Source: Methanomassiliicoccaceae archaeon (GTDB lineage Archaea > Thermoplasmatota > Thermoplasmata > Methanomassiliicoccales > Methanomethylophilaceae). From it: a stretch of 38,591 nucleotides of DNA. The DNA is taken from positions 1 to 38,591 of the forward strand of contig PWHV01000003.1 in NCBI GenBank assembly GCA_003555025.1, read 5' to 3'. The stretch's first letter is position 1; each line of letters starts with the position of its first letter. A model generated the notes under the pieces. The model did not search any database. It was not told where the DNA came from and saw only the letters and a program-made list of their open reading frames with translations. Positions 2,913 through 26,819 of the stretch are shown one piece after another. The position numbers and the translations under genes are program-made.

Positions 2913-3652
2913 ATGGGGCAGTGGTCGGACCCCATCACTTCCGGCATTATACCGGCACCCTTCATCGAGCCAGTGAGACCCTCGCTAACCAGGAAGTAGT
3001 CGATCCTCCATCCGACGTTCCTCTCCCGGGCCCGTGTCCGCACGGACCACCAGGTGTAGAGGTGGGGGCTGGTATCGAACTCGCGGAGGCTGTCCACGAA
3101 ACCGATGTCCAGGAAACGGTCGATCCAATCCCGCTCCTGGGGGAGGAAGCCGGATATGTCGGAGTTCTCCTTCGGCCTCGCCAGGTCGATCTCCTTGTGG
3201 GCGGTGTTCACATCGCCGCAGACCACCACGCTCTCCCCGTCCTCGAGGAGCCGCTTGCAGAGTCCGAGGAAATCCTCATAGAAATCCATCTTGTACGCCA
3301 GCCTCTCCGCCGAGGCCTTGCCGTTGGGGAAGTACACGTTCAGCAGTGTGAACTCTGGATAACGGCAGAGGCAGAACCTGCCCTCGTCGTCGAAGCGGGG
3401 CGAGAACTGGAAGCTCACCTCCTCCGGCTCCTTGCGGGTGTAGGTGGCCACGCCGGAGTACCCCTTCCTCTCCGGCCTCGACATGTGCAATGAATAGCCC
3501 TCAAAGCCGGTCAGCTCCGGTCCGAGCTGCTCCAGCCAGGCCTTGGTCTCCTGCAGGCAGAGCACGTCCAGGGACTCGGACCGGAACCACTCTGTGAAGC
3601 CCTTCTTCTGCACCGAACGCAGACCGTTGACATTCCAGGAAACCAACCTCAT
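2891..3652 (-). CDS. xthA: Exonuclease III / AP endonuclease
   Basis: 253 residues from the ATG at 3652, the start that gives the standard MRLVSWNVNGLRS N terminus; the frame stays open 21 bases further upstream. Motifs of the ExoIII/APE1 family are present in order: SWNVNGLRS, CLQETK (metal-ligand Glu), GYSGVATYTR, LLNVYFPNG, VVVCGDVNTAHKEIDL (Asp/Asn catalytic pair), VDSLREF, and the C-terminal GSDHCPIYLDL with the catalytic Asp-His. The enzyme incises DNA 5' to abasic sites in base-excision repair. It is transcribed convergently to the ATPase gene, with a 22-base overlap of the two coding ends. Confidence 0.95.
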   Translation of the reverse strand: MRLVSWNVNGLRSVQKKGFTEWFRSESLDVLCLQETKAWLEQLGPELTGFEGYSLHMSRPERKGYSGVATYTRKEPEEVSFQFSPRFDDEGRFCLCRYPEFTLLNVYFPNGKASAERLAYKMDFYEDFLGLCKRLLEDGESVVVCGDVNTAHKEIDLARPKENSDISGFLPQERDWIDRFLDIGFVDSLREFDTSPHLYTWWSVRTRARERNVGWRIDYFLVSEGLTGSMKGAGIMPEVMGSDHCPIYLDLDL

Positions 3653-3769
3653 GGACTCCGTCCTCCGCCCCAAAGGTTATCATTCGTGAGCGCATTATAG
3701 TTTTCTGCCGGCGTTACCAGAGAGGTCATGGTGCGAACGGACCATTCTTGAATCAATGAACATCGATTT

Positions 3770-3786
3770 TTGCAACATTGTTGCAA
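3770..3786. promoter_or_regulatory. Perfect 17-base palindrome, candidate operator
   Basis: TTGCAACA, a central T, then TGTTGCAA: eight base pairs of perfect dyad symmetry. It sits about 90 bases upstream of the TATA box of the methyltransferase-like gene, within an AT-rich tract. A looser TTGC...GCAA pair occurs at 3852-3871, next to the TATA box. Dyads of this size are typical binding sites for dimeric helix-turn-helix regulators; the regulator is not evident in the window. Confidence 0.5.
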
Positions 3787-3873
3787 TTTTTTCTGATTTT
3801 CCCTGTTTGACCACCTTAAACAAGCGTAAAAAATTCCTTAGTGAAACAAAGTTGCGAACAAGACATGGCAACG

Positions 3874-3881
3874 TATAAATA
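3874..3881 (+). promoter_or_regulatory. TATA box of the methyltransferase-like operon
   Basis: TATAAATA, a near-consensus archaeal TATA element. Transcription should begin about 25 bases on, near 3903-3905, leaving a leader of only about 10 bases before the ATG at 3915. The whole 3745-3914 stretch is markedly AT-rich compared with the surrounding genes, which suggests a strongly expressed and possibly regulated promoter. Confidence 0.65.
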
Positions 3882-3914
3882 CACTGATTAATGTAACATG
3901 ACCTAGGGATTGCA

Positions 3915-5033
3915 ATGGGTTACGAAGAGCTGTTTCCGAAAAACGATCTCGACGGTTGGCATGCGAATGCCGCCAAGAGATTTGCAAGTCCCTTCGTAGA
4001 CAACTTCCACGACAGAATCGATGTGGATCCGATTATCCTATCGCACGCTGCCGTGGCATGTGGATACACCATCCGTGACTTCTATGAGAAGCCGGAGCTG
4101 GGCATCCACTGCGTTGGCTATATCTCCGAACTCTACGACCTCCTGCCGGTCACCCACTGGTTCTTCTCGCTCCCGTGGGTCACCGAGCTGGGGCTCACCC
4201 TGGAGTACAAGGAGACTCTGCCTCCGATTCCGACCGGACCCGTATGGGGCCCTGAGGACGTCGAGAAGGCGGAGCCCATAGCCAAAGAGGACCTACTGAA
4301 GGGTTGGACGATGCCGTTGTTCTTCAACCTCTACGACTATGTCGCAGAGAACCTGCCCCACACCTTGGTTCCGATATCCTATGGATTCGACCTGGTGGGG
4401 GCGGCCTCTGAGATGGTCGGGGTTGAGGAGTTCATCATGTGGACCTTCACGGAGCCGGACCTGGCACACAAGCTGGTCGACACCTACGTGGAGACATCGG
4501 TCAATGGCGCCGACGCACTATCCGACAAGTATGGCATGGCCATGCTCATCGTGGGCTCGGTGCTTGCGAACAACGACATATTCGCCGACGAGCAGGTCGA
4601 GGAGTTCTCCGCCAAGAAGATGGGCCACTATGTGGACCAGTGCTTCAGAAAGGGAGCCGGGCCTCAGATCTTCTACCACATGTGCGGTAACCACGAGACC
4701 TCCTACAAGGTCTTCAGGGACAACCTGGTATGGTCTCCCTTCACCGTTACCCACGTTGGTTACGATGGATCGAAGGTCTTCCCGTCCGACAAGCTCAAGG
4801 AGACGTTCCAGGATGTGTCCACGTGTATGGGATCGGTTGACACCAAGCTGATGATCAACCCGAACCCCAAGGCGGTCTACGACCAGAGCAGGGACCAGCT
4901 CCTTGCCGGCCGCGACGCCAAGAAGGGCTACATCCTCGGCAACTCCTGTGAATGCCCACCGTACACCATACCGGGCAACATGCTCGCTATGACCCGCGCG
5001 GCAAGGGACTTCGGCACATACGGAACATGGTGA
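3915..5033 (+). CDS. Uroporphyrinogen decarboxylase-fold methyltransferase (MtaA/CmuA-like)
   Basis: 372 residues. I assign the URO-D fold family that also contains corrinoid:coenzyme M methyltransferases (MtaA, MtbA) and bacterial demethylase methyltransferases. The zinc-site signature is visible: His255-x-Cys257 in FYHMCGNHE, and a distal cysteine pair at Cys345/Cys347 (NSCECPPY), matching the H-x-C...C ligands of MtaA-type enzymes rather than haem-pathway HemE. The aromatic-rich N-terminal half (HWFFSLPW) is unlike housekeeping HemE. It likely transfers a methyl group to or from a corrinoid or thiol; the substrate is unknown. A short leader follows a strong TATA box. The downstream 149-residue partner begins 10 bases after the stop, so they form an operon. 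No corrinoid-binding protein (DxHxxG) is adjacent. Confidence 0.8.
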   Translation: MGYEELFPKNDLDGWHANAAKRFASPFVDNFHDRIDVDPIILSHAAVACGYTIRDFYEKPELGIHCVGYISELYDLLPVTHWFFSLPWVTELGLTLEYKETLPPIPTGPVWGPEDVEKAEPIAKEDLLKGWTMPLFFNLYDYVAENLPHTLVPISYGFDLVGAASEMVGVEEFIMWTFTEPDLAHKLVDTYVETSVNGADALSDKYGMAMLIVGSVLANNDIFADEQVEEFSAKKMGHYVDQCFRKGAGPQIFYHMCGNHETSYKVFRDNLVWSPFTVTHVGYDGSKVFPSDKLKETFQDVSTCMGSVDTKLMINPNPKAVYDQSRDQLLAGRDAKKGYILGNSCECPPYTIPGNMLAMTRAARDFGTYGTW

Positions 5034-5043
5034 GGTGATTAAG

Positions 5044-5493
5044 ATGGAGTTTGAATTTTCTGACGCAGTGAAGGAGGTCCTTGGTTCCAGGGGTCTCAAA
5101 GAGGATGACATAAAGGCTGTCATCGAGAATGCGGAGGGCTCCAACGACAAGATCACCGATGGCGAGAAGAACATCGCCAAGAAGGAGATCGGAGACCTCA
5201 CCGTATATGCCGTGTACTCGGTCGATGGCGGAAAAGCAGTGGTCCAGTCGGGCTACGCGCACAAGATGAAAATCCTCGACATCGTGCAGGACACCTCCGA
5301 TGCCGAGGGATGGACCTACGCCAAGAACGGCGCCCCGGTCAGGAAGGGCCACACCAACCTGACCTACATGGGAGCGACCCGCTCCGGTCCATGCATGTGC
5401 GAACCCACATCGGGCGAGTCCTGGTTCGAGGAGTACCTGGCCGCCAGCGCTCTGGCCGCCGCCGAGGGTCTCTTCGAGCAGAAGAGGGCATAG
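5044..5493 (+). CDS. Unknown protein co-encoded with the URO-D-fold methyltransferase
   Basis: 149 residues from the ATG at 5044. This start is preferred over an in-frame GTG at 5035 because the Shine-Dalgarno match GAGGTGAT (5032-5039) lies at proper distance from the ATG and itself covers the GTG. The N-terminal half reads SDAVKEVLGSRGLKEDDIK, loosely like small domains that begin with an RGI/L-x-E-x-D helix. Next comes a beta-rich centre (DLTVYAVYSV, KAVVQSGYAHKM) and a cysteine pair GPCMCEP at 117/119. It is not a corrinoid protein, since it has no DxHxxG. I do not recognise the family. Tight spacing implies joint expression with the methyltransferase, perhaps as a subunit or redox/metal partner. 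Confidence 0.75.
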   Translation: MEFEFSDAVKEVLGSRGLKEDDIKAVIENAEGSNDKITDGEKNIAKKEIGDLTVYAVYSVDGGKAVVQSGYAHKMKILDIVQDTSDAEGWTYAKNGAPVRKGHTNLTYMGATRSGPCMCEPTSGESWFEEYLAASALAAAEGLFEQKRA

Positions 5494-5501
5494 AATCAAA
5501 C

Positions 5502-5530
5502 GCCGCGCAAGCGGCATCCTTACTTTCCTT
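5502..5530 (+). terminator. Possible terminator hairpin
   Basis: Eight bases after the TAG stop, GCCGC and GCGGC pair around a GCAA tetraloop (5502-5515), followed by a pyrimidine-rich stretch (TACTTTCCTTTTACTT). The position fits the end of the methyltransferase-like operon. T-rich runs are the main archaeal signal; the hairpin may stabilise the 3' end. Confidence 0.45.
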
Positions 5531-5601
5531 TTACTTATCCACAGTTCTTTTCCAAAGCATTATTATCAGCGTCACCGATTCCGTGCAGGAATGGTGCCAT
5601 C

Positions 5602-6975
5602 ATGTCCAGGAAGCTAGGTGAGACCGCGGCCCTGTGCCCTCAGTGCCTTAAGACCATACCCGCCGAGAAGATCGCCGAGGACGATGTCGTGTACATAGTC
5701 AAGGAATGCGACGAGCACGGCAGCTGGAAGGTCAGGATATGGGAGGGCGTGGACGAATACCTACACCTCTACGATTTCGGAGCGGTGCAGAAACCACCGG
5801 AGAAGTTCGGGGTCAAGGAACTGAAGGACTGCCCCCAGGACTGCGGCCTCTGCTCCGGGCACAAGCAGCACACCTGCCTGAACGTGGTGGAGGTCACCAA
5901 CCTCTGTAACATGAACTGCCCCATCTGTTTCGCCCGCTCCAACACCGACTACCGTTTCCATCCCGACATGGACCTGATCCGCAAGATGCTGCAGACAGTC
6001 ATGGACTACGTGCCGAGCCCCCGTTGTGTCCAGCTCAGCGGCGGAGAGCCCACTATCAGGGACGACCTCCCCGACATCGTGCGCCTGGCAAAGGAGATGG
6101 GCATAGAGCACATCGAGGTCAACACCAACGGCCTGCGCATCGCCAAGGAGAAGGAATACCTGCAGGCGCTAAAGGACGCTGGGGTGGACACATTCTACTT
6201 CCAGTTCGACGGAACCCGGGACGACATCTACAGGCAGACCCGTGGCCGCGACCTGTTCGAGCTCAAGAAGCAGGCTTTGGCGAACTGCGCCGAGGTGGGC
6301 ACGGGCGTCACCTTGGTAGCCACGGTGTCCCCCACTATAAACCTGGACAACGTGGGCGAGATGATACAGTTCGCCATTGAGAACGTGCCCACTGTCAAGG
6401 GCATACACTTCCAGCCCATCTTCTACGTGGGACGCTACCCTGTCGACCCCTCCGACAAAGACCGCGTCACCCTTTCGCAGCTCGCCAAGGCGATAGAGGA
6501 GCAGACCATGGGCATGCTGCAGGCGGACAACTTCATACCCACCTCCTGCTCCAACGTCCACTGCGACATCAAGTCGCTGTCTGTCGTCCTTCCCGACAAG
6601 TCCCTGTTCCCCATGACCACAATGGCCCTGGGGCCGCCCCGCGACACCGAGAACATCGCCGAGAAGACCCGGACCGAGGTGTCCCAGTTCTGGCGCTTCA
6701 TCGAGGAGACCATGGACGGCCCCTCGGAGAGCGATGACAACAGCTGGTCCGCCTTCGTCGACCGGGCGAAGACCCATTACCTTACCGTGTCATCGATGGC
6801 GTTCCAGGACGCCTGGACAGGAGAGACGGAGCGCTGGGAGCGCTGCTGCATACACATGGTCACTCCCGACGGGCGGCTGGTGCCGTTCTGCTTGTTCAAC
6901 GTCAACAACAAGGACGGAGAGACCCTTTATCGCCACCAGGCCTTCAGGCCTTACGGTGAAAAGATGAAGGAATGA
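5602..6975 (+). CDS. Radical SAM protein of the Tes / MJ0619 family (tetraether synthase-like)
   Basis: 457 residues. The radical SAM cluster motif CNMNCPIC (Cys102, Cys106, Cys109) is followed by LSGGEPT and NTNGLR, both standard for the SAM-binding barrel. The N terminus has extra cysteines at 12, 15, 36, 77, 81, 84 and 92, in CPQCLKTIP, KECDEHG and CPQDCGLC. This is the multi-cluster pattern of the family that includes MJ0619 (pterin methylation) and Tes, which couples archaeol chains into tetraether lipids. The C terminus has a WERCCIHM segment. With the other ether-lipid genes in this window, a Tes-like role is attractive, but MJ0619-like pterin chemistry is an alternative I cannot exclude. 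ATG start at 5602. Confidence 0.8.
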   Translation: MSRKLGETAALCPQCLKTIPAEKIAEDDVVYIVKECDEHGSWKVRIWEGVDEYLHLYDFGAVQKPPEKFGVKELKDCPQDCGLCSGHKQHTCLNVVEVTNLCNMNCPICFARSNTDYRFHPDMDLIRKMLQTVMDYVPSPRCVQLSGGEPTIRDDLPDIVRLAKEMGIEHIEVNTNGLRIAKEKEYLQALKDAGVDTFYFQFDGTRDDIYRQTRGRDLFELKKQALANCAEVGTGVTLVATVSPTINLDNVGEMIQFAIENVPTVKGIHFQPIFYVGRYPVDPSDKDRVTLSQLAKAIEEQTMGMLQADNFIPTSCSNVHCDIKSLSVVLPDKSLFPMTTMALGPPRDTENIAEKTRTEVSQFWRFIEETMDGPSESDDNSWSAFVDRAKTHYLTVSSMAFQDAWTGETERWERCCIHMVTPDGRLVPFCLFNVNNKDGETLYRHQAFRPYGEKMKE

Positions 6976-6995
6976 GGCCAAAGGCCTCTTTTTTT
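6975..6995 (+). terminator. Hairpin plus T-run terminator
   Basis: AGGCC, loop AAA, GGCCT (6975-6987), then C and seven T residues (6989-6995). The stop codon of the radical SAM gene overlaps the first base. Immediately after the T-run comes AAAAA (6996-7000), so the convergent zinc-ribbon transcript also meets a T-run in its own direction; the element probably works both ways. Confidence 0.75.
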
Positions 6996-7005
6996 AAAAA
7001 GCGGA

Positions 7006-7311
7006 TCAACGGCGGCGGTTGTAGCCGAAGCTGCCGTAGTGCTTGTTGACCACGCCGCTCATGTAGTTGCTGAGGAATTTCTCCTTCTCCTTGGTGTTTA
7101 CCAAGGAACCAAGCAGGGGGAACTCGTGGTCGCAATGGACGCAGCGGACGTACTTGCAGTTCTGGCTGACCTTGGGGCAACCTCTGCAGGCTATCGCCCT
7201 GGACTGGAACATGCTGAACTCCTTCCCGCACTTGGGGCAGGTGAATCTGTGCGTGGCCGACAACATCTGCGGCGTCACGCCGGCTCTCGCCATCTCCGGG
7301 GTCAGTACCAT
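7006..7311 (-). CDS. Small cysteine-rich zinc-ribbon protein
   Basis: 101 residues. Seven cysteines sit in zinc-ribbon-like spacing: CPKC at 25-28, CRGC at 42-45, then Cys52, Cys57 and Cys60 (CKYVRCVHC) followed by His61, enough for two zinc sites. The N-terminal stretch MVLTPEMARAGVTPQML is helical, and the C terminus is basic and ends GYNRRR. I do not recognise the family; zinc ribbons of this kind usually contact RNA, DNA or proteins. It is convergent with the radical SAM gene and shares a bidirectional terminator. Start ATG at 7311. Confidence 0.65.
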   Translation of the reverse strand: MVLTPEMARAGVTPQMLSATHRFTCPKCGKEFSMFQSRAIACRGCPKVSQNCKYVRCVHCDHEFPLLGSLVNTKEKEKFLSNYMSGVVNKHYGSFGYNRRR

Positions 7312-7384
7312 TTTGCATTCTCTCCGGTCTTGTGGTCGAAGTTAAAGCCTTCCCTATATTTACAATTCACGATAGCACCAGGAG

Positions 7385-8179
7385 CTATTCCAGTTCCTCC
7401 TTCGTCGGCAGCATGGCGGGCGGGAATATCGGGCTCCAACGGGTGAACGGACGGAAGGGGTACGGGGCCATTGGCTTGCTGCCCTCCAGCCCCCTCATCA
7501 GTCCCGGCATGCGGTTGGCGGGAAGGACCATGACCATCTCATCGTCGCCCACCAGACCGTAGAGCCGGTCCCCGATGCAAGGGATGTCCAAGGAAGGCTC
7601 GCCCGTGTCGTGGGCGCGGGATATGGAGGCGCACACCGATGCCTGCCCGGTGACCGGGCTGCAGACCGCACCACCCTCCTCGAAGTGGAGGCCGGTGATG
7701 AGCCTGAGCATCTGGCCAGGGGTGCCGTATATCACCACCACGTCCGGATCGCCGCGGCAATGCGCCAGAGGCGCCACCTCAACCGAACCGTACCTCTTGC
7801 CCCTGTCGCCCATCATGCCCATGCGGGCGTGCATCCGCTCGCCGGCCTCCAGATCCTGGACGAAGCCCAGATAGAGCTGTCCTCTGCTCAGGCGCGGCGG
7901 GGTGTCTATCAACCCCAGGGCCGCCGCCCCCCATACGCAACGCATGGTCGAAGGCGAGGAGGCCAGCACCCCGTCCGCTCCATCGAAACGGGCGCGGAGG
8001 ATCATCTGGCATATGGCGGTGTCCCTCATCGACCTCCCCGGGAATGAGCTGAGCTCCGAAGCGCTCTCCAGGAACCTAACTGCCACTGCGTCCCCGCGGA
8101 GCCGAACGTCCTCTTGCAAACGACGGGATGCTTTTGCCCAATCTATGTCCATGCGGAAGCATTCCCTTTGCAGGCTCAT
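7385..8179 (-). CDS. DUF169 family protein
   Basis: 264 residues. The layout is that of DUF169 proteins, which are common in methanogens and anaerobes and still without an assigned reaction. Features are the early LRLRGDAVAVRF-like strand, an ICQMILRAR segment with cysteine, a central YLGFVQDLEAGERM, DVVVIYGTPGQMLRL, EEGGAVCSPVTG (conserved cysteine), and late IPCIGDRLYGLVGDDEMVMVLP. The start ATG at 8179 is preferred to one at 8152 because an AT-rich TATA-like element (about 8200-8212) lies 25 bases upstream, giving a leaderless transcript. The stop is TAG. The gene is divergent from the PaaK-like ligase, with only 57 bases between the starts. Confidence 0.85.
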   Translation of the reverse strand: MSLQRECFRMDIDWAKASRRLQEDVRLRGDAVAVRFLESASELSSFPGRSMRDTAICQMILRARFDGADGVLASSPSTMRCVWGAAALGLIDTPPRLSRGQLYLGFVQDLEAGERMHARMGMMGDRGKRYGSVEVAPLAHCRGDPDVVVIYGTPGQMLRLITGLHFEEGGAVCSPVTGQASVCASISRAHDTGEPSLDIPCIGDRLYGLVGDDEMVMVLPANRMPGLMRGLEGSKPMAPYPFRPFTRWSPIFPPAMLPTKEELE

Positions 8180-8236: not shown

Positions 8237-9688
8237 ATGAGCGCTTGGAACAGGGTCAAGATCGCCATCGTCCGTAGGAAGCTCCTCTCCAACAAGATCC
8301 CCGAGGACAGCGAGAATCCTTTGGAGGAGTGGATGGCCCTCAAGGCCAAAGATACCCTGAAAAAGAGCCCGGAGATGCAGAAGGCGATCGGCAGGAAGAA
8401 GCTGGACACGGTGGGCCATGAAGAGTTCAGTGAGTACCAGCTCTTCCGCGTCCGTGAACAGATGCGCTACGTCCAAGAGAACTCCATCTTCTACAAGGAC
8501 AGGTTCCGCGAGGCCGGCGTCTCCCCGGAGGACATACGCAGCTACCAGGACCTGGTGCGCATACCGCTGACCACGCCGGACGAGATGGCCGTGGAGCCCA
8601 ACCATTTCCTCTGCGTGTCGATGACCAAGACCGAGAGGGCCTTCACCACCACCGGGACCTCAGGCGTGAGGAAAAGGGTCTTCTACACCCGCGAGGACCT
8701 ATTGGCCAAGATAGACATCATCTCCTCCGCGCTCATGAACGTGGGCATGAGGAAGGGGGACGTCCTCCACATAATGTTCCCCACCGTCGGCGCTTGGGAC
8801 CCGAGCCTGATGCTGGCGGGAGCGTGCATGGTGGCAGGGTACGGTTCTTCAAGCTCGGCGAGCGTGGACATATCCGAGCAGATGCGCACCATCACCGAGA
8901 ACAACTCCTCCTACATCATCGGCCTGCCCTCCTTCATCTACCGCGTAACGGTGTTGGCCGGCGAGCAGGTGGACCTGAGGTCATTGGGCATCAAGAAGGT
9001 CATATGCGCCGCCGAGCCGCTGTCCGAGTCCATGAGAAACATCCTCCAGGAGGCGTGGGGATGCCCAGTGCTCGATGTGTGGGGCATGACCGAGTTCGGA
9101 CTGGCCTGCGCCATAGAGTGCGATGAGATGAACGGCCTCCACACCGATGATGCCAACATGCTGTTCGAGGTCATCGACCCGGAGACGGGGGAGCATGTCG
9201 CGGACGGGGAGAAGGGGGAGCTGGTGGTCACCAGCCTCAACTCCGAGGCCACCCCTCTGATACGGTATCGCACCAGGGACATCAGCTTCCTTTACCCGCC
9301 CCGTTGCGATTGCGGGACCAGGTTCAACCGCCGCATCGGCAAGCCCGGGGGGCGCCTGGACCTGTTGACCAAGATCGGGCTGGGCCAGAAGGTTTACCCC
9401 TTGCTGTTCGATGAGGCGTTGCTGCAGTTCCCGGAGGTTGTCAGTTACCAGCTCACCATCGACCGTGAGGGGTACAAGGACGTCCTCACCTTCTGCGTGG
9501 AGACCGAGAGGGCCGATGAGGGGCTCAGGCAGCGCCTCGTCGATGCCTTGGTCTCCATAGCCGAGATAGAGCAAGGTATCGACGAGGAGCTCTTGGAAGT
9601 GCCGAGGGTGCATTTCCGCGATGCTGGAACCAAGGATTACGTCTCCAAGGCCAAGGTAATCGTCGACAAGCGGGAGAATTACGACTGA
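8237..9688 (+). CDS. Phenylacetate-CoA ligase family adenylate-forming enzyme
   Basis: 483 residues of the PaaK branch of the AMP-forming ligase superfamily. The ATP-binding signature reads TTTGTSGVRKRVFYTRED (about residues 136-155). Further motifs are a VWGMTEFG adenine-site motif, LVVTSLNSEATPLIRYRTRD and the later CGTRFNRRIGKPGGR, which position the adenylate. There is an N-terminal extension of about 50 basic residues before the usual QLFRVREQMRYVQENS start of PaaK proteins. In methanogens, relatives include coenzyme F390 synthetase and several uncharacterised acyl-CoA ligases; the substrate here cannot be told. PdxT begins 9 bases after its stop, suggesting co-transcription. Confidence 0.85.
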   Translation: MSAWNRVKIAIVRRKLLSNKIPEDSENPLEEWMALKAKDTLKKSPEMQKAIGRKKLDTVGHEEFSEYQLFRVREQMRYVQENSIFYKDRFREAGVSPEDIRSYQDLVRIPLTTPDEMAVEPNHFLCVSMTKTERAFTTTGTSGVRKRVFYTREDLLAKIDIISSALMNVGMRKGDVLHIMFPTVGAWDPSLMLAGACMVAGYGSSSSASVDISEQMRTITENNSSYIIGLPSFIYRVTVLAGEQVDLRSLGIKKVICAAEPLSESMRNILQEAWGCPVLDVWGMTEFGLACAIECDEMNGLHTDDANMLFEVIDPETGEHVADGEKGELVVTSLNSEATPLIRYRTRDISFLYPPRCDCGTRFNRRIGKPGGRLDLLTKIGLGQKVYPLLFDEALLQFPEVVSYQLTIDREGYKDVLTFCVETERADEGLRQRLVDALVSIAEIEQGIDEELLEVPRVHFRDAGTKDYVSKAKVIVDKRENYD

Positions 9689-23181: not shown

Positions 23182-23550
23182 ATGACTAAAAACGCTTGGA
23201 AGAAAGAGGATGAGCATCTCGTCGATCTGCTGTTGAGGACAGGGATGAGGAAGAACGTAGCCAGGACCCTGGTTTTTCTGAAGAACACCCCAGAGACCAC
23301 ATCCGTGGAGATCGAATCGTCAACCTCTTTGCGCCAGCCCGAGGTATCTATCGCCATGCAGGAGTTGCGTAACCGGGGCTGGGTGGAGAAAAGGGACATC
23401 AAGAAGAAGGGCAAGGGCCGCCCCGTGCACTCATACCGGCTGTCGGTGAATTTCCCGGAGATCATTGACGCCATCGAAGAGGACGAGAAGGAGAGGGTGC
23501 AGAGCATACTCGACAACATCGAGGATCTCCGCAGCTTCAACCAGAGCTGA
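23182..23550 (+). CDS. Winged helix-turn-helix transcriptional regulator
   Basis: 122 residues. The fold is an ArsR/TrmB-like winged helix. ARTLVFLKNTPETTSVEIESST leads into the recognition helix SLRQPEVSIAMQELRNRGWVEKRDIKKKGKGRPVHSYRL, where KKKGKGRP is the wing. A C-terminal acidic helix (EEDEKERVQSILDNIEDL) may dimerise. There is no ligand-binding domain, so it may sense nothing directly or act with a partner. The promoter contains two TGAT-n-ATCA dyads, which could be its own sites. The gene is divergent from the ribosomal operon. Confidence 0.82.
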   Translation: MTKNAWKKEDEHLVDLLLRTGMRKNVARTLVFLKNTPETTSVEIESSTSLRQPEVSIAMQELRNRGWVEKRDIKKKGKGRPVHSYRLSVNFPEIIDAIEEDEKERVQSILDNIEDLRSFNQS

Positions 23551-25182: not shown

Positions 25183-25884
25183 ATGAGGTTGGCGTCGCTG
25201 TTCTCGGGGGGCAAGGACTCCATGATGGCACTCTGGTTGATGGAGCAGCAGGGCCATCGGCTGCCATATCTGGTCAACATAGTCCCCAGTCGCAGCGACT
25301 CATGGGTATTCCACACTCCCAACTTGCACCTCCTGCCTCTGATCGCCGAGTCGATGGGGAAGGAGCTGGTGCAGGCCGAGGGCGGCGAGGACGAGGCCCA
25401 TGACCTGGCAGCGCTAAAGGAGACCCTTTCCTCTCTGGACGTGGATGGGGTGGTCACCGGAGCTGTCGCCTCCGACTATCAATGGGACCGGGTCAACCGC
25501 GTCTGCGAGCACCTGGGGTTGAAGACATTCTCTCCGCTGTGGCGCAAAGGCCAGGCCCTGCTCATGGACGAGATCCTCGACGCCGGCATCGACTGCTGCG
25601 TCGTCGCGGTGATGGCGGAGGGCCTGGACGAGGGATGGCTGGGCCGCAGAATCGACGCCGAGGCTCTCGAGGAGCTAGACCGCCTGGCGGTCCGCCACGG
25701 CATAAACGTCGCCGGCGAGGGGGGAGAGTATGAGTCGCTGGTGCTGGACTCCCCGCTCCACTCCCGCCCGCTGGTGGTGGCCGCCGCGGAGCGGTCGATG
25801 GGCCGGGACTCCGGCTTCCTGAAGGTGACGGGGGCTCACCTCGGCTCACGGAAGGACTCGATGAACTCCCGCAGGCCGACGTAG
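25183..25884 (+). CDS. dph6: Diphthine-ammonia ligase family ATPase (Dph6)
   Basis: 233 residues. The PP-loop SGGKDSMMA is at residues 8-16, with family motifs VTGAVASDYQWDRVNRVC and GEGGEYESLVLDSPL near the end. Dph6 amidates diphthine to complete diphthamide on translation factor aEF2. The length and the GEGGEYES signature match archaeal Dph6 (formerly MJ0570 family). ATG 25183 is about 26 bases past the shared TATA box, so it is probably leaderless. The last 49 bases overlap the antiparallel end of the downstream peroxiredoxin-like gene. Confidence 0.9.
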   Translation: MRLASLFSGGKDSMMALWLMEQQGHRLPYLVNIVPSRSDSWVFHTPNLHLLPLIAESMGKELVQAEGGEDEAHDLAALKETLSSLDVDGVVTGAVASDYQWDRVNRVCEHLGLKTFSPLWRKGQALLMDEILDAGIDCCVVAVMAEGLDEGWLGRRIDAEALEELDRLAVRHGINVAGEGGEYESLVLDSPLHSRPLVVAAAERSMGRDSGFLKVTGAHLGSRKDSMNSRRPT

Positions 25885-26339
25885 TCGGGCGGCTGGGCAG
25901 GGTCCTCATCCGCCGCCCACGCGTAGACGATGACCCCATCCTCGTCGATGACGTACACCGCCCTCCCCGCCATGCCCTCGTATATGTCGTGGTTGGATAT
26001 CCGGCAGCCGTAGGTGCTGATGACATCGGAGCCAGGGTCGCTGAGCAGAGGGAACGGGAACGCCATGCGCGACCGGTACCGGCGGTGGGCGTCGATGCCG
26101 TCCCTCGCCACCGCCCATAACCTCATCCCTCTGCTGTCGAGCTCCGGCCAAAGGTCGCGGAACTTGCTCAGGACCCAGGAGCAGGTGGTCCCGAAGTCCC
26201 CCATGTAGAATGCCAGGACAACCGGGCCTTCGGGCAGTTCCTCCGAGAGCGTTAGCGTCCCGGCGGTGGACTCCACGGTGAAGTCCGGGGCCTTGTCCCC
26301 CTCGGCCAGCGGCGAAGGCTTGTACCAACCCAATGACAT
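25836..26339 (-). CDS. Peroxiredoxin-like thioredoxin-fold protein, second of a tandem pair
   Basis: 167 residues. Redoxin/AhpC-TSA fold: GDKAPDFTVES at the N terminus, then PVVLAFYMGDFGTTCSW with the peroxidatic-type Cys53. The usual P-x-x-x-T-x-x-C reads M-G-D-F-G-T-T-C here, so both the Pro and the catalytic Thr are replaced. A second Cys occurs in TYGCRIS, and the closing strand VYVIDEDGVIVYAW is normal. It may be a divergent peroxidase or a thiol-disulfide protein. It starts with ATG directly after the TAG of its paralogue, and its 3' end overlaps dph6 by 49 bases. Confidence 0.85.
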   Translation of the reverse strand: MSLGWYKPSPLAEGDKAPDFTVESTAGTLTLSEELPEGPVVLAFYMGDFGTTCSWVLSKFRDLWPELDSRGMRLWAVARDGIDAHRRYRSRMAFPFPLLSDPGSDVISTYGCRISNHDIYEGMAGRAVYVIDEDGVIVYAWAADEDPAQPPDYVGLREFIESFREPR

Positions 26340-26819
26340 CTATCCTAGAACATCGTCCAAGCTCTTTAAGATGTCCTCCACCTCCGGCAGCTGCTTTGGT
26401 ATATCCGCCTTCCATTTGAAGAGGATGATACCGTCGCGGCCCACCAGGAAGAACTCGCGGTTGGTGAAGCCCTGTACCATCGAGGTGGCCTTGACGATGG
26501 CGTCATATCGCCTGCTGACCTGCTGCCCCTCATCGATTATGTGCTCCAGGTCGGAGCCCAAACGCTCCCTCCACTTGATGTGCGTCTCCTTGCTGTCGGG
26601 GTTGATCGGCATCAGCCGCACCCCTCGCTTCTCGAACTCCTCCACTCTCTCCACCAGCTTGGCCATGAAGTTGGTGCAGTTGATGCCGAAGGCCGCCACG
26701 TGGAAATAGAGCAGCACCGGGTCCTTGGCGGCCTCCTCATGGAGGTTGAAGGCCTCCCTGTCCGTGGTATCGAGGGTGAAATCAGGGGCGGTGTCGCCGA
26801 CCTCGGGAGCTGAACTCAT
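26340..26819 (-). CDS. Peroxiredoxin-like thioredoxin-fold protein, first of a tandem pair
   Basis: 159 residues with VGDTAPDFTLDT, then PVLLYFHVAAFGINCTNF, placing the putative peroxidatic Cys at 48. The position of Thr in the usual PxxxTxxC is Gly45, and that of the Pro is Val41. FFLVGRDGIILFKWKA is the normal late strand. No other cysteine is present, so a resolving partner would be external. The TAG stop (26340-26342) touches the ATG of the paralogue, giving a zero-base gap. If UAG were decoded, a 327-residue double-domain protein would result. Confidence 0.85.
   Translation of the reverse strand: MSSAPEVGDTAPDFTLDTTDREAFNLHEEAAKDPVLLYFHVAAFGINCTNFMAKLVERVEEFEKRGVRLMPINPDSKETHIKWRERLGSDLEHIIDEGQQVSRRYDAIVKATSMVQGFTNREFFLVGRDGIILFKWKADIPKQLPEVEDILKSLDDVLG

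Follow-up and report, generated by a model that had tools for sequence, protein, structure and literature searches.

A probable zinc URO-D-type protein and a fused two-domain partner adjoin a TrsS radical SAM gene in Methanomassiliicoccales: a possible four-gene biosynthetic module

The window, that is, the whole stretch of 38,591 nucleotides analyzed here, is contig C31 of a 1.4-Mb genome in 36 contigs (G000), and the relatives used for comparison are Methanomassiliicoccales. Near one end lie two adjacent genes, A and B, followed by genes for a radical SAM protein, a DUF169 protein and a CoA ligase. The features of the locus, in window positions, are as follows.

3770..3786, no strand assigned: palindromic operator TTGCAACATTGTTGCAA, perfect, 8+1+8 (17 bp)
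3843..3859, no strand assigned: possible second, degenerate half-site GAAACAAAGTTGCGAAC, tentative and read directly
3874..3881, plus strand: TATA box TATAAATA of the A-B operon, with TATAAA at 3874-3879, -41 from the ATG
3915..5033, plus strand: gene A, predicted URO-D/MtaA-like zinc methyltransferase, 372 aa, probable zinc ligands H255, C257 and C345
5032..5039, plus strand: Shine-Dalgarno sequence GAGGTGAT of gene B, overlapping the stop codon of A
5044..5493, plus strand: gene B, two-domain partner, 149 aa
5044..5283, plus strand: N-terminal domain of B, like the C-terminus of NCBIfam diclust_near_Sec, with a BrnT/RelE-like fold in the model
5314..5484, plus strand: C-terminal domain of B, a probable degenerate DUF7479/DVU_1557-type zinc ribbon
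5502..5515, plus strand: hairpin GCCGC-GCAA-GCGGC after B (-10.7 kcal/mol), then a T-rich stretch; likely terminator
5602..6975, plus strand: TrsS, radical SAM protein of the tetraether-synthase superfamily, 457 aa
7385..8179, minus strand: DUF169 protein (PF02596, 1e-42), a variable member of the set
8237..9688, plus strand: DVU_1553-like AMP-dependent CoA ligase, 483 aa, about 1.3 kb beyond TrsS

The open reading frames of A and B are real, and the adjacent pair is kept in essentially every relative examined. The stop codon of A (5031-5033) and the ATG of B (5044) are separated by exactly 10 bases, and a near-identical overlap of Shine-Dalgarno sequence and stop codon recurs in most of the 13 relatives' loci compared. 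A first-pass annotation of this DNA had stressed the tight pairing, the 10-base gap and the strong Shine-Dalgarno sequence; all were confirmed in the window, and in the relatives' loci B adjoins the URO-D homologues rather than being absent next to them. Where the flanking sequence is long enough to tell, most loci, drawn from six Methanomassiliicoccales families, show the order A-B-TrsS; the DUF169 gene is missing from the locus in several genera of the window's family. One genome carries a second A-B copy without an adjoining TrsS (L087, G026:C5), and the B protein encoded there is the closest of all to diclust_near_Sec. Family f2 has a ZnuABC-type metal ABC transporter gene set upstream of A (L083, L085, L091, L094), with a rhodanese/metallo-beta-lactamase protein encoded further upstream. 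Elsewhere in the window are an ABC-class ATPase with an MRB1590 C-terminal domain (1203-2912), an MreA-family transcriptional regulator (23182-23550; 133.5 bits, cut-off 100) and two adjoining ORFs judged by eye to be peroxiredoxin-like (25836-26339 and 26340-26819). An Rfam search of positions 3300-7500 gave no match.

The strong TATA box, the perfect upstream palindrome and the downstream hairpin described at first pass were all found, and all are conserved in relatives' loci. All 15 loci compared have a TATA element between -38 and -41 ahead of A. The palindrome TTGCAACATTGTTGCAA has one site in the window against 0.05 expected in shuffled sequences, and it is conserved in three genera; the half-site GAAACAAAGTTGCGAAC is near-identical in L002/L017 and L019 and similar in L021. 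All four loci tested from the same genus retain the hairpin, and several of the deeper relatives (L030, L036, L040) have GC-rich hairpins ahead of T-rich stretches. A further TATA-like element lies at about 5560-5565, upstream of TrsS. Hairpin and element together suggest that TrsS has its own promoter, so co-transcription of B with TrsS is not required.

Exact copies of the palindrome, TGCAACN3GTTGCA, occur at two real sites in G000: one precedes A, and the other lies about 12 bp ahead of a gene for an Lrp/AsnC-type regulator of 154 aa. A third apparent site is a 121-base contig overlap shared by contigs C15 and C5, which can be joined. The regulator gene falls at this junction (end of C15, start of C5; L157, L156), flanked by a YcaO-like gene and another DUF169 gene, and was assigned from its sequence rather than by a profile scan. 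In the motif-holding genomes of genera g1 and g10, every exact site is upstream of A or of the Lrp/AsnC gene (in one incomplete genome of this survey the A gene is off the contig). Genus g9 retains only the A-side palindrome, and family f5 has two sites, both at other places. The natural reading of this distribution is a putative autoregulated Lrp/AsnC protein whose operator is common to A-B, and this regulator probably controls the pair.

Gene A belongs to the URO-D family: it scores 86.7 bits against PF01208 (gathering cut-off 23.9; 2e-24), its only Pfam match at E<=1. Its sole PDB sequence match is the methylcobalamin:CoM methyltransferase 4ay7, an MtaA, with which its H-x-C motif aligns. 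The H-x-C...C zinc signature recognized earlier is borne out: H255, C257 and C345 are invariant in 22 homologues, whereas the second cysteine of C-E-C, C347, alternates with threonine. The nearest NCBIfam families are MtaA/CmuA models, on which A scores far below the cut-offs (40.8 bits against 235 for TIGR01463 and 35.5 against 400 for NF040654). We therefore describe A as a probable zinc-binding URO-D protein of the MtaA kind that lies outside any characterized family. Its predicted model was poor (pLDDT 65.5) and was left out of the analysis.

The context of A was read in the window and in relatives' loci, where not every ORF is annotated. In agreement with the first pass, the genes identified beside A in these loci include no corrinoid protein and no substrate methyltransferase, nor is a Ram or other activase among them. 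Plasmids and viral contigs yielded no B; A had only two distant plasmid matches, with 21-23% identity, of which the annotated one is a URO-D protein beside a cobalamin-dependent protein. A URO-D paralogue, A', scores about 500 bits against the A profile (G000:C27:48874-49989; L124:6875-7990) and is restricted to A-bearing lineages. In G000 it adjoins cobyric acid synthase (CbiP/CobB type) and CobB-type genes; its neighbors vary among genera. Corrinoid methylotrophy was considered from gene context and rejected: no corrinoid protein or activase was identified near A, and the context of A' varies outside G000.

These data bear on the role first proposed for the pair, a methyl-relay or demethylation system with a new partner, read here as one that would feed methyl groups to coenzyme M for methanogenesis. 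An MtaA-like enzyme tightly paired with B does exist, its nearest curated families are MtaA/CmuA models, and the hosts are methyl-reducing methanogens. However, the A proteins score only 36-55 bits on these MtaA/CmuA-type models against cut-offs of 235-400, the corrinoid protein, activase and substrate methyltransferase expected of such a system were not identified beside A in the loci read, and a relay gives no account of why A-B is so strictly linked to TrsS and the CoA ligase. Since the conserved partner is a tetraether-synthase-like radical SAM protein, methyl relay is no longer the simplest overall role, and we regard it as unlikely.

A second possibility is that A, partnered by B much as MesD is by MesX, resembles a methionine synthase that needs no folate (methylcobamide:homocysteine); an Lrp/AsnC regulator of the amino-acid type would control it, and it would have been lost where the surroundings may supply methionine. 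Consistent with this, the fold superfamily that holds the zinc thiolate site of A also holds methionine synthases, the operator is common with an Lrp/AsnC-type gene, the module is missing from several genera, and A' lies beside cobyric acid synthase in G000. The growth needs reported for two species point the same way: M. alvi requires rumen fluid or Eggerthella filtrate, and M. luminyensis is listed with acetate only (PMC10673518). Against it, Methanomassiliicoccales are reported to have MesB (Price et al., PMC7857596), A matches URO-D/MtaA rather than MetE-type structures and lacks the PF01717 catalytic domain, and co-loss with TrsS and the ligase would go unexplained. A PF01717 search matched 0 of 76 genomes, a result that is uninformative on a missing methionine synthase because the search misses MesB/MesC; it also misses M. 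acetivorans, which has MesC. On this evidence, a methionine synthase role is unlikely.

The partner B, called unrecognized at first pass, resolves, in profile searches with it and its deeper orthologues, into two known domains. For the N-terminal half the match is to the final 80 positions of diclust_near_Sec (E 4e-9 for the window protein, 5e-15 for the L034 orthologue), and in deeper orthologues this half matches positions 679-758 with up to 54.6 bits. A search of relatives with the whole NF045663 profile was dominated by its oxidoreductase domains and is uninformative for B. The C-terminal half of the window protein scores 19.4 bits (E 0.0011) against DUF7479 (PF24292), below the gathering cut-off of 27, while six deeper orthologues exceed that cut-off with 47-63 bits (62.9 in L032). 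The related DVU_1557 redox protein profile (NF045645) finds no match in the window's B itself; B orthologues among deep relatives reach at most 43.6 bits against its cut-off of 60. Several deeper relatives carry a C-x2-C...C-x2-C pattern that was lost in the window's own lineage. By sequence comparison, then, the C-terminal half of B is probably of the DUF7479/DVU_1557 family, eroded here and clear in deeper relatives. The late CMC motif once highlighted as a feature of B is present and unconserved: it falls in the eroded zinc-ribbon region and, given the loss of the CxxC...CxxC pattern, is a remnant or a coincidence.

The AlphaFold model of B is confident (pLDDT 89.6), and its N-terminal domain resembles BrnT/RelE folds with middling Z scores of 5.8-5.9 (5.8 to BrnT 3u97). 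A Foldseek search gave no match at E<=0.001, and no chain listed in the fold search accounted for the C-terminal half. The modeled likeness might suggest a toxin-like protein unconnected with the metabolism of A, but it shows no function by itself. The sequence match of this domain is to the diclust_near_Sec C-terminus, the domain is fused to a DUF7479 domain and encoded directly behind A in every case, and no antitoxin-like gene was seen adjoining B. A toxin role is accordingly very improbable.

TrsS begins 108 nt downstream of B and scores 516.7 bits against NF045646, above the curated cut-off of 490; this cut-off is exceeded in 49 of 116 genomes of the order. Weaker matches in G041 and G237 were set aside as standalone radical SAM genes without A or B. 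The only PDB match of TrsS at E<=1e-10 is tetraether synthase 7tol (1.7e-86). Its candidate ligands are C12-x2-C15-x20-C36-x2-H39, C77/C81/C84, a CX3CX2C motif and C415/C416/C430; the metal-type cysteines are invariant in 24 TrsS sequences, and the histidines were read in the window protein only. This spacing matches that of tetraether synthase, with its C-x2-C-x20-C-x2-H, C73/C77/C80-type set, CX3CX2C and C-terminal cysteines (PMC9433317). By this comparison TrsS retains the residues traced as ligands of all four tetraether synthase metal cofactors. The "class D methylase" activity once ascribed to MJ0619 is reported to lack corroboration (PMC9433317), so TrsS should not inherit a methylase label. 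A selenoproteome review counts TrsS among the prokaryotic selenoprotein families (PMC13188914); there is no in-frame stop in the gene here and hence no selenocysteine. Beyond the listing in that selenoproteome review, no literature on the function of DVU_1551-1557 or TrsS was found. The CoA ligase co-occurs with TrsS, and its best family is DVU_1553, with 260.6 bits here and at most 269 overall against a cut-off of 300.

Co-occurrence was assessed in 76 Methanomassiliicoccales genomes, each at least 90% complete, counting A as a close orthologue. A is present in 40, B in 39, TrsS in 38 and the ligase in 39; all four occur together in 37 genomes, none in 36, and some in three. The partial cases (G363, G372, G314) are assemblies of 130-230 contigs, in which absent genes may be assembly gaps. 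The set is absent from genera g4, g5, g11, g12 and g13 of the window's family and, separately, from two genomes of genus g20, which indicates at least two independent events. These results do not support the earlier description of A-B as self-contained: TrsS and the CoA ligase come and go with the pair.

The same chromosomal site was read over 12-19 kb in eight module-free genomes. All four genes are absent there, while UbiA and/or GGGPS still lie beside a zinc-ribbon gene (six genomes) or pdxT (two genomes), and GGGPS was present in 12 of 12 module-free genomes searched. Since UbiA and GGGPS stay in place, they are housekeeping neighbors separate from the module, and a lipid link drawn through them was rejected, the neighbors being in place in eight of eight regions read. 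This bears on a reading in which membrane lipids, such as those of M. luminyensis with butanetriol/pentanetriol backbones, would be methylated or extended by the module, with TrsS as a tetraether synthase paralogue beside GGGPS and UbiA. TrsS is indeed related to tetraether synthase, another gene of this genome, on G000:C32, is Tes-like, and butanetriol lipids with evidence of backbone methylation are cited for M. luminyensis. Yet the adjacency is uninformative, TrsS belongs to a listed selenoprotein family, and 73 residues separate two conserved blocks in TrsS against 116 in tetraether synthase. We consider a lipid role distinctly unlikely.

Taken together, the reading that fits best is a Trs-type radical-SAM module for biosynthesis in which a zinc methyltransferase is either an addition or a component not reported before. 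We put at about even the chance that A, B, TrsS and the CoA ligase form a four-gene biosynthetic module, gained and lost as a unit and working by the following mechanism. The Zn(His-Cys-Cys) site of A would activate a thiol, and a methyl group would be moved between this thiol and a methyl donor, by analogy with MtaA probably a cobamide. The CoA ligase would activate a carboxylate substrate, and TrsS, with the cofactor set of tetraether synthase, would form a new carbon bond on the activated substrate via a 5'-deoxyadenosyl radical. B may dock A and/or TrsS and support electron or metal delivery. An Lrp/AsnC-type regulator with the common palindromic operator would probably control A-B. The adjacency, the near-perfect co-occurrence, the clean absence at the same chromosomal site, the metal ligands and the shared operator were observed directly; we infer methyl transfer by A, activation by the ligase, bond formation by TrsS and docking or redox support by B.

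The transporter upstream of A in one family and the operator common with the Lrp/AsnC gene were counted in favor of the module. Counted against it were the scores of B (at most 43.6 bits against 60) and of the ligase (at most 269 against 300), which miss curated bacterial cut-offs, and the small number of independent losses behind the co-occurrence (at least two). Also against it, B and TrsS are divided by a hairpin and probably a second promoter, and neither a methyl donor nor a corrinoid protein nor a substrate was found for it. A more specific claim, that A and a fused DVU_1557/diclust-type B are dedicated partners of TrsS and the CoA ligase and make a metabolite or cofactor by coupling a methyl-thiol step to radical C-C bond formation, is tentative and on balance less probable than its contrary. 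No rival explains the co-loss better, and each covers part of the data.

Among known systems, the methylcobalamin:coenzyme M methyltransferases MtaA/MtbA share with A the URO-D family and the H-x-C...C zinc site; A differs in lying far under the family cut-offs, in having no corrinoid protein identified nearby and in its partner genes. Type 1 mlp clusters (Kountz and Balskus, PMC10418091) likewise place MtaA-like proteins outside canonical methylotrophy, but they need at least two Mlps, a corrinoid protein and a Ram activase; the latter two were not identified here, and the locus is not a type 1 mlp cluster. MesD/MesX (PMC7857596) also combine a zinc methyltransferase with an obligatory partner protein, but MesD is of the MetE catalytic family, MesX is DUF1852, and the system is found in aerobes. 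Tes/GDGT-MAS (MJ0619) has the same metal-ligand set as TrsS and strong sequence similarity to it; however, the 376 bits of TrsS on the Tes model fall short of the cut-off of 450, its stretch between conserved blocks is shorter, and its genome has a Tes-like gene elsewhere. No published cluster resembling the locus was found.

The closest likeness is to the TrsS-type sets described by NF045646 together with NF045645 (DVU_1557), NF045663 (diclust_near_Sec) and NF045666 (DVU_1553): TrsS is above its cut-off, and both B domains and the CoA ligase match families of these neighboring NCBIfam accessions, B and the ligase below the cut-offs. Two of the names are Desulfovibrio vulgaris locus tags four genes apart, and from the accessions and locus-tag names we infer that these families describe one bacterial gene set. 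The locus departs from such sets in that B fuses two of the families and has just the C-terminal part of diclust_near_Sec, the first gene encodes a URO-D methyltransferase, and TrsS lacks selenocysteine. We would class it as a variant of the uncharacterized TrsS-type sets, with two parts below curated cut-offs. TrsS itself is a curated radical SAM (seleno)protein family related to an archaeal lipid-joining enzyme, and we found no functional account of it. The locus reveals its companion genes in methanogens and adds a zinc methyltransferase and a fused adaptor. With a unit of gain and loss defined and a candidate regulator named, an orphan family can now be approached as a pathway open to testing, in an order some of whose members can be cultivated.
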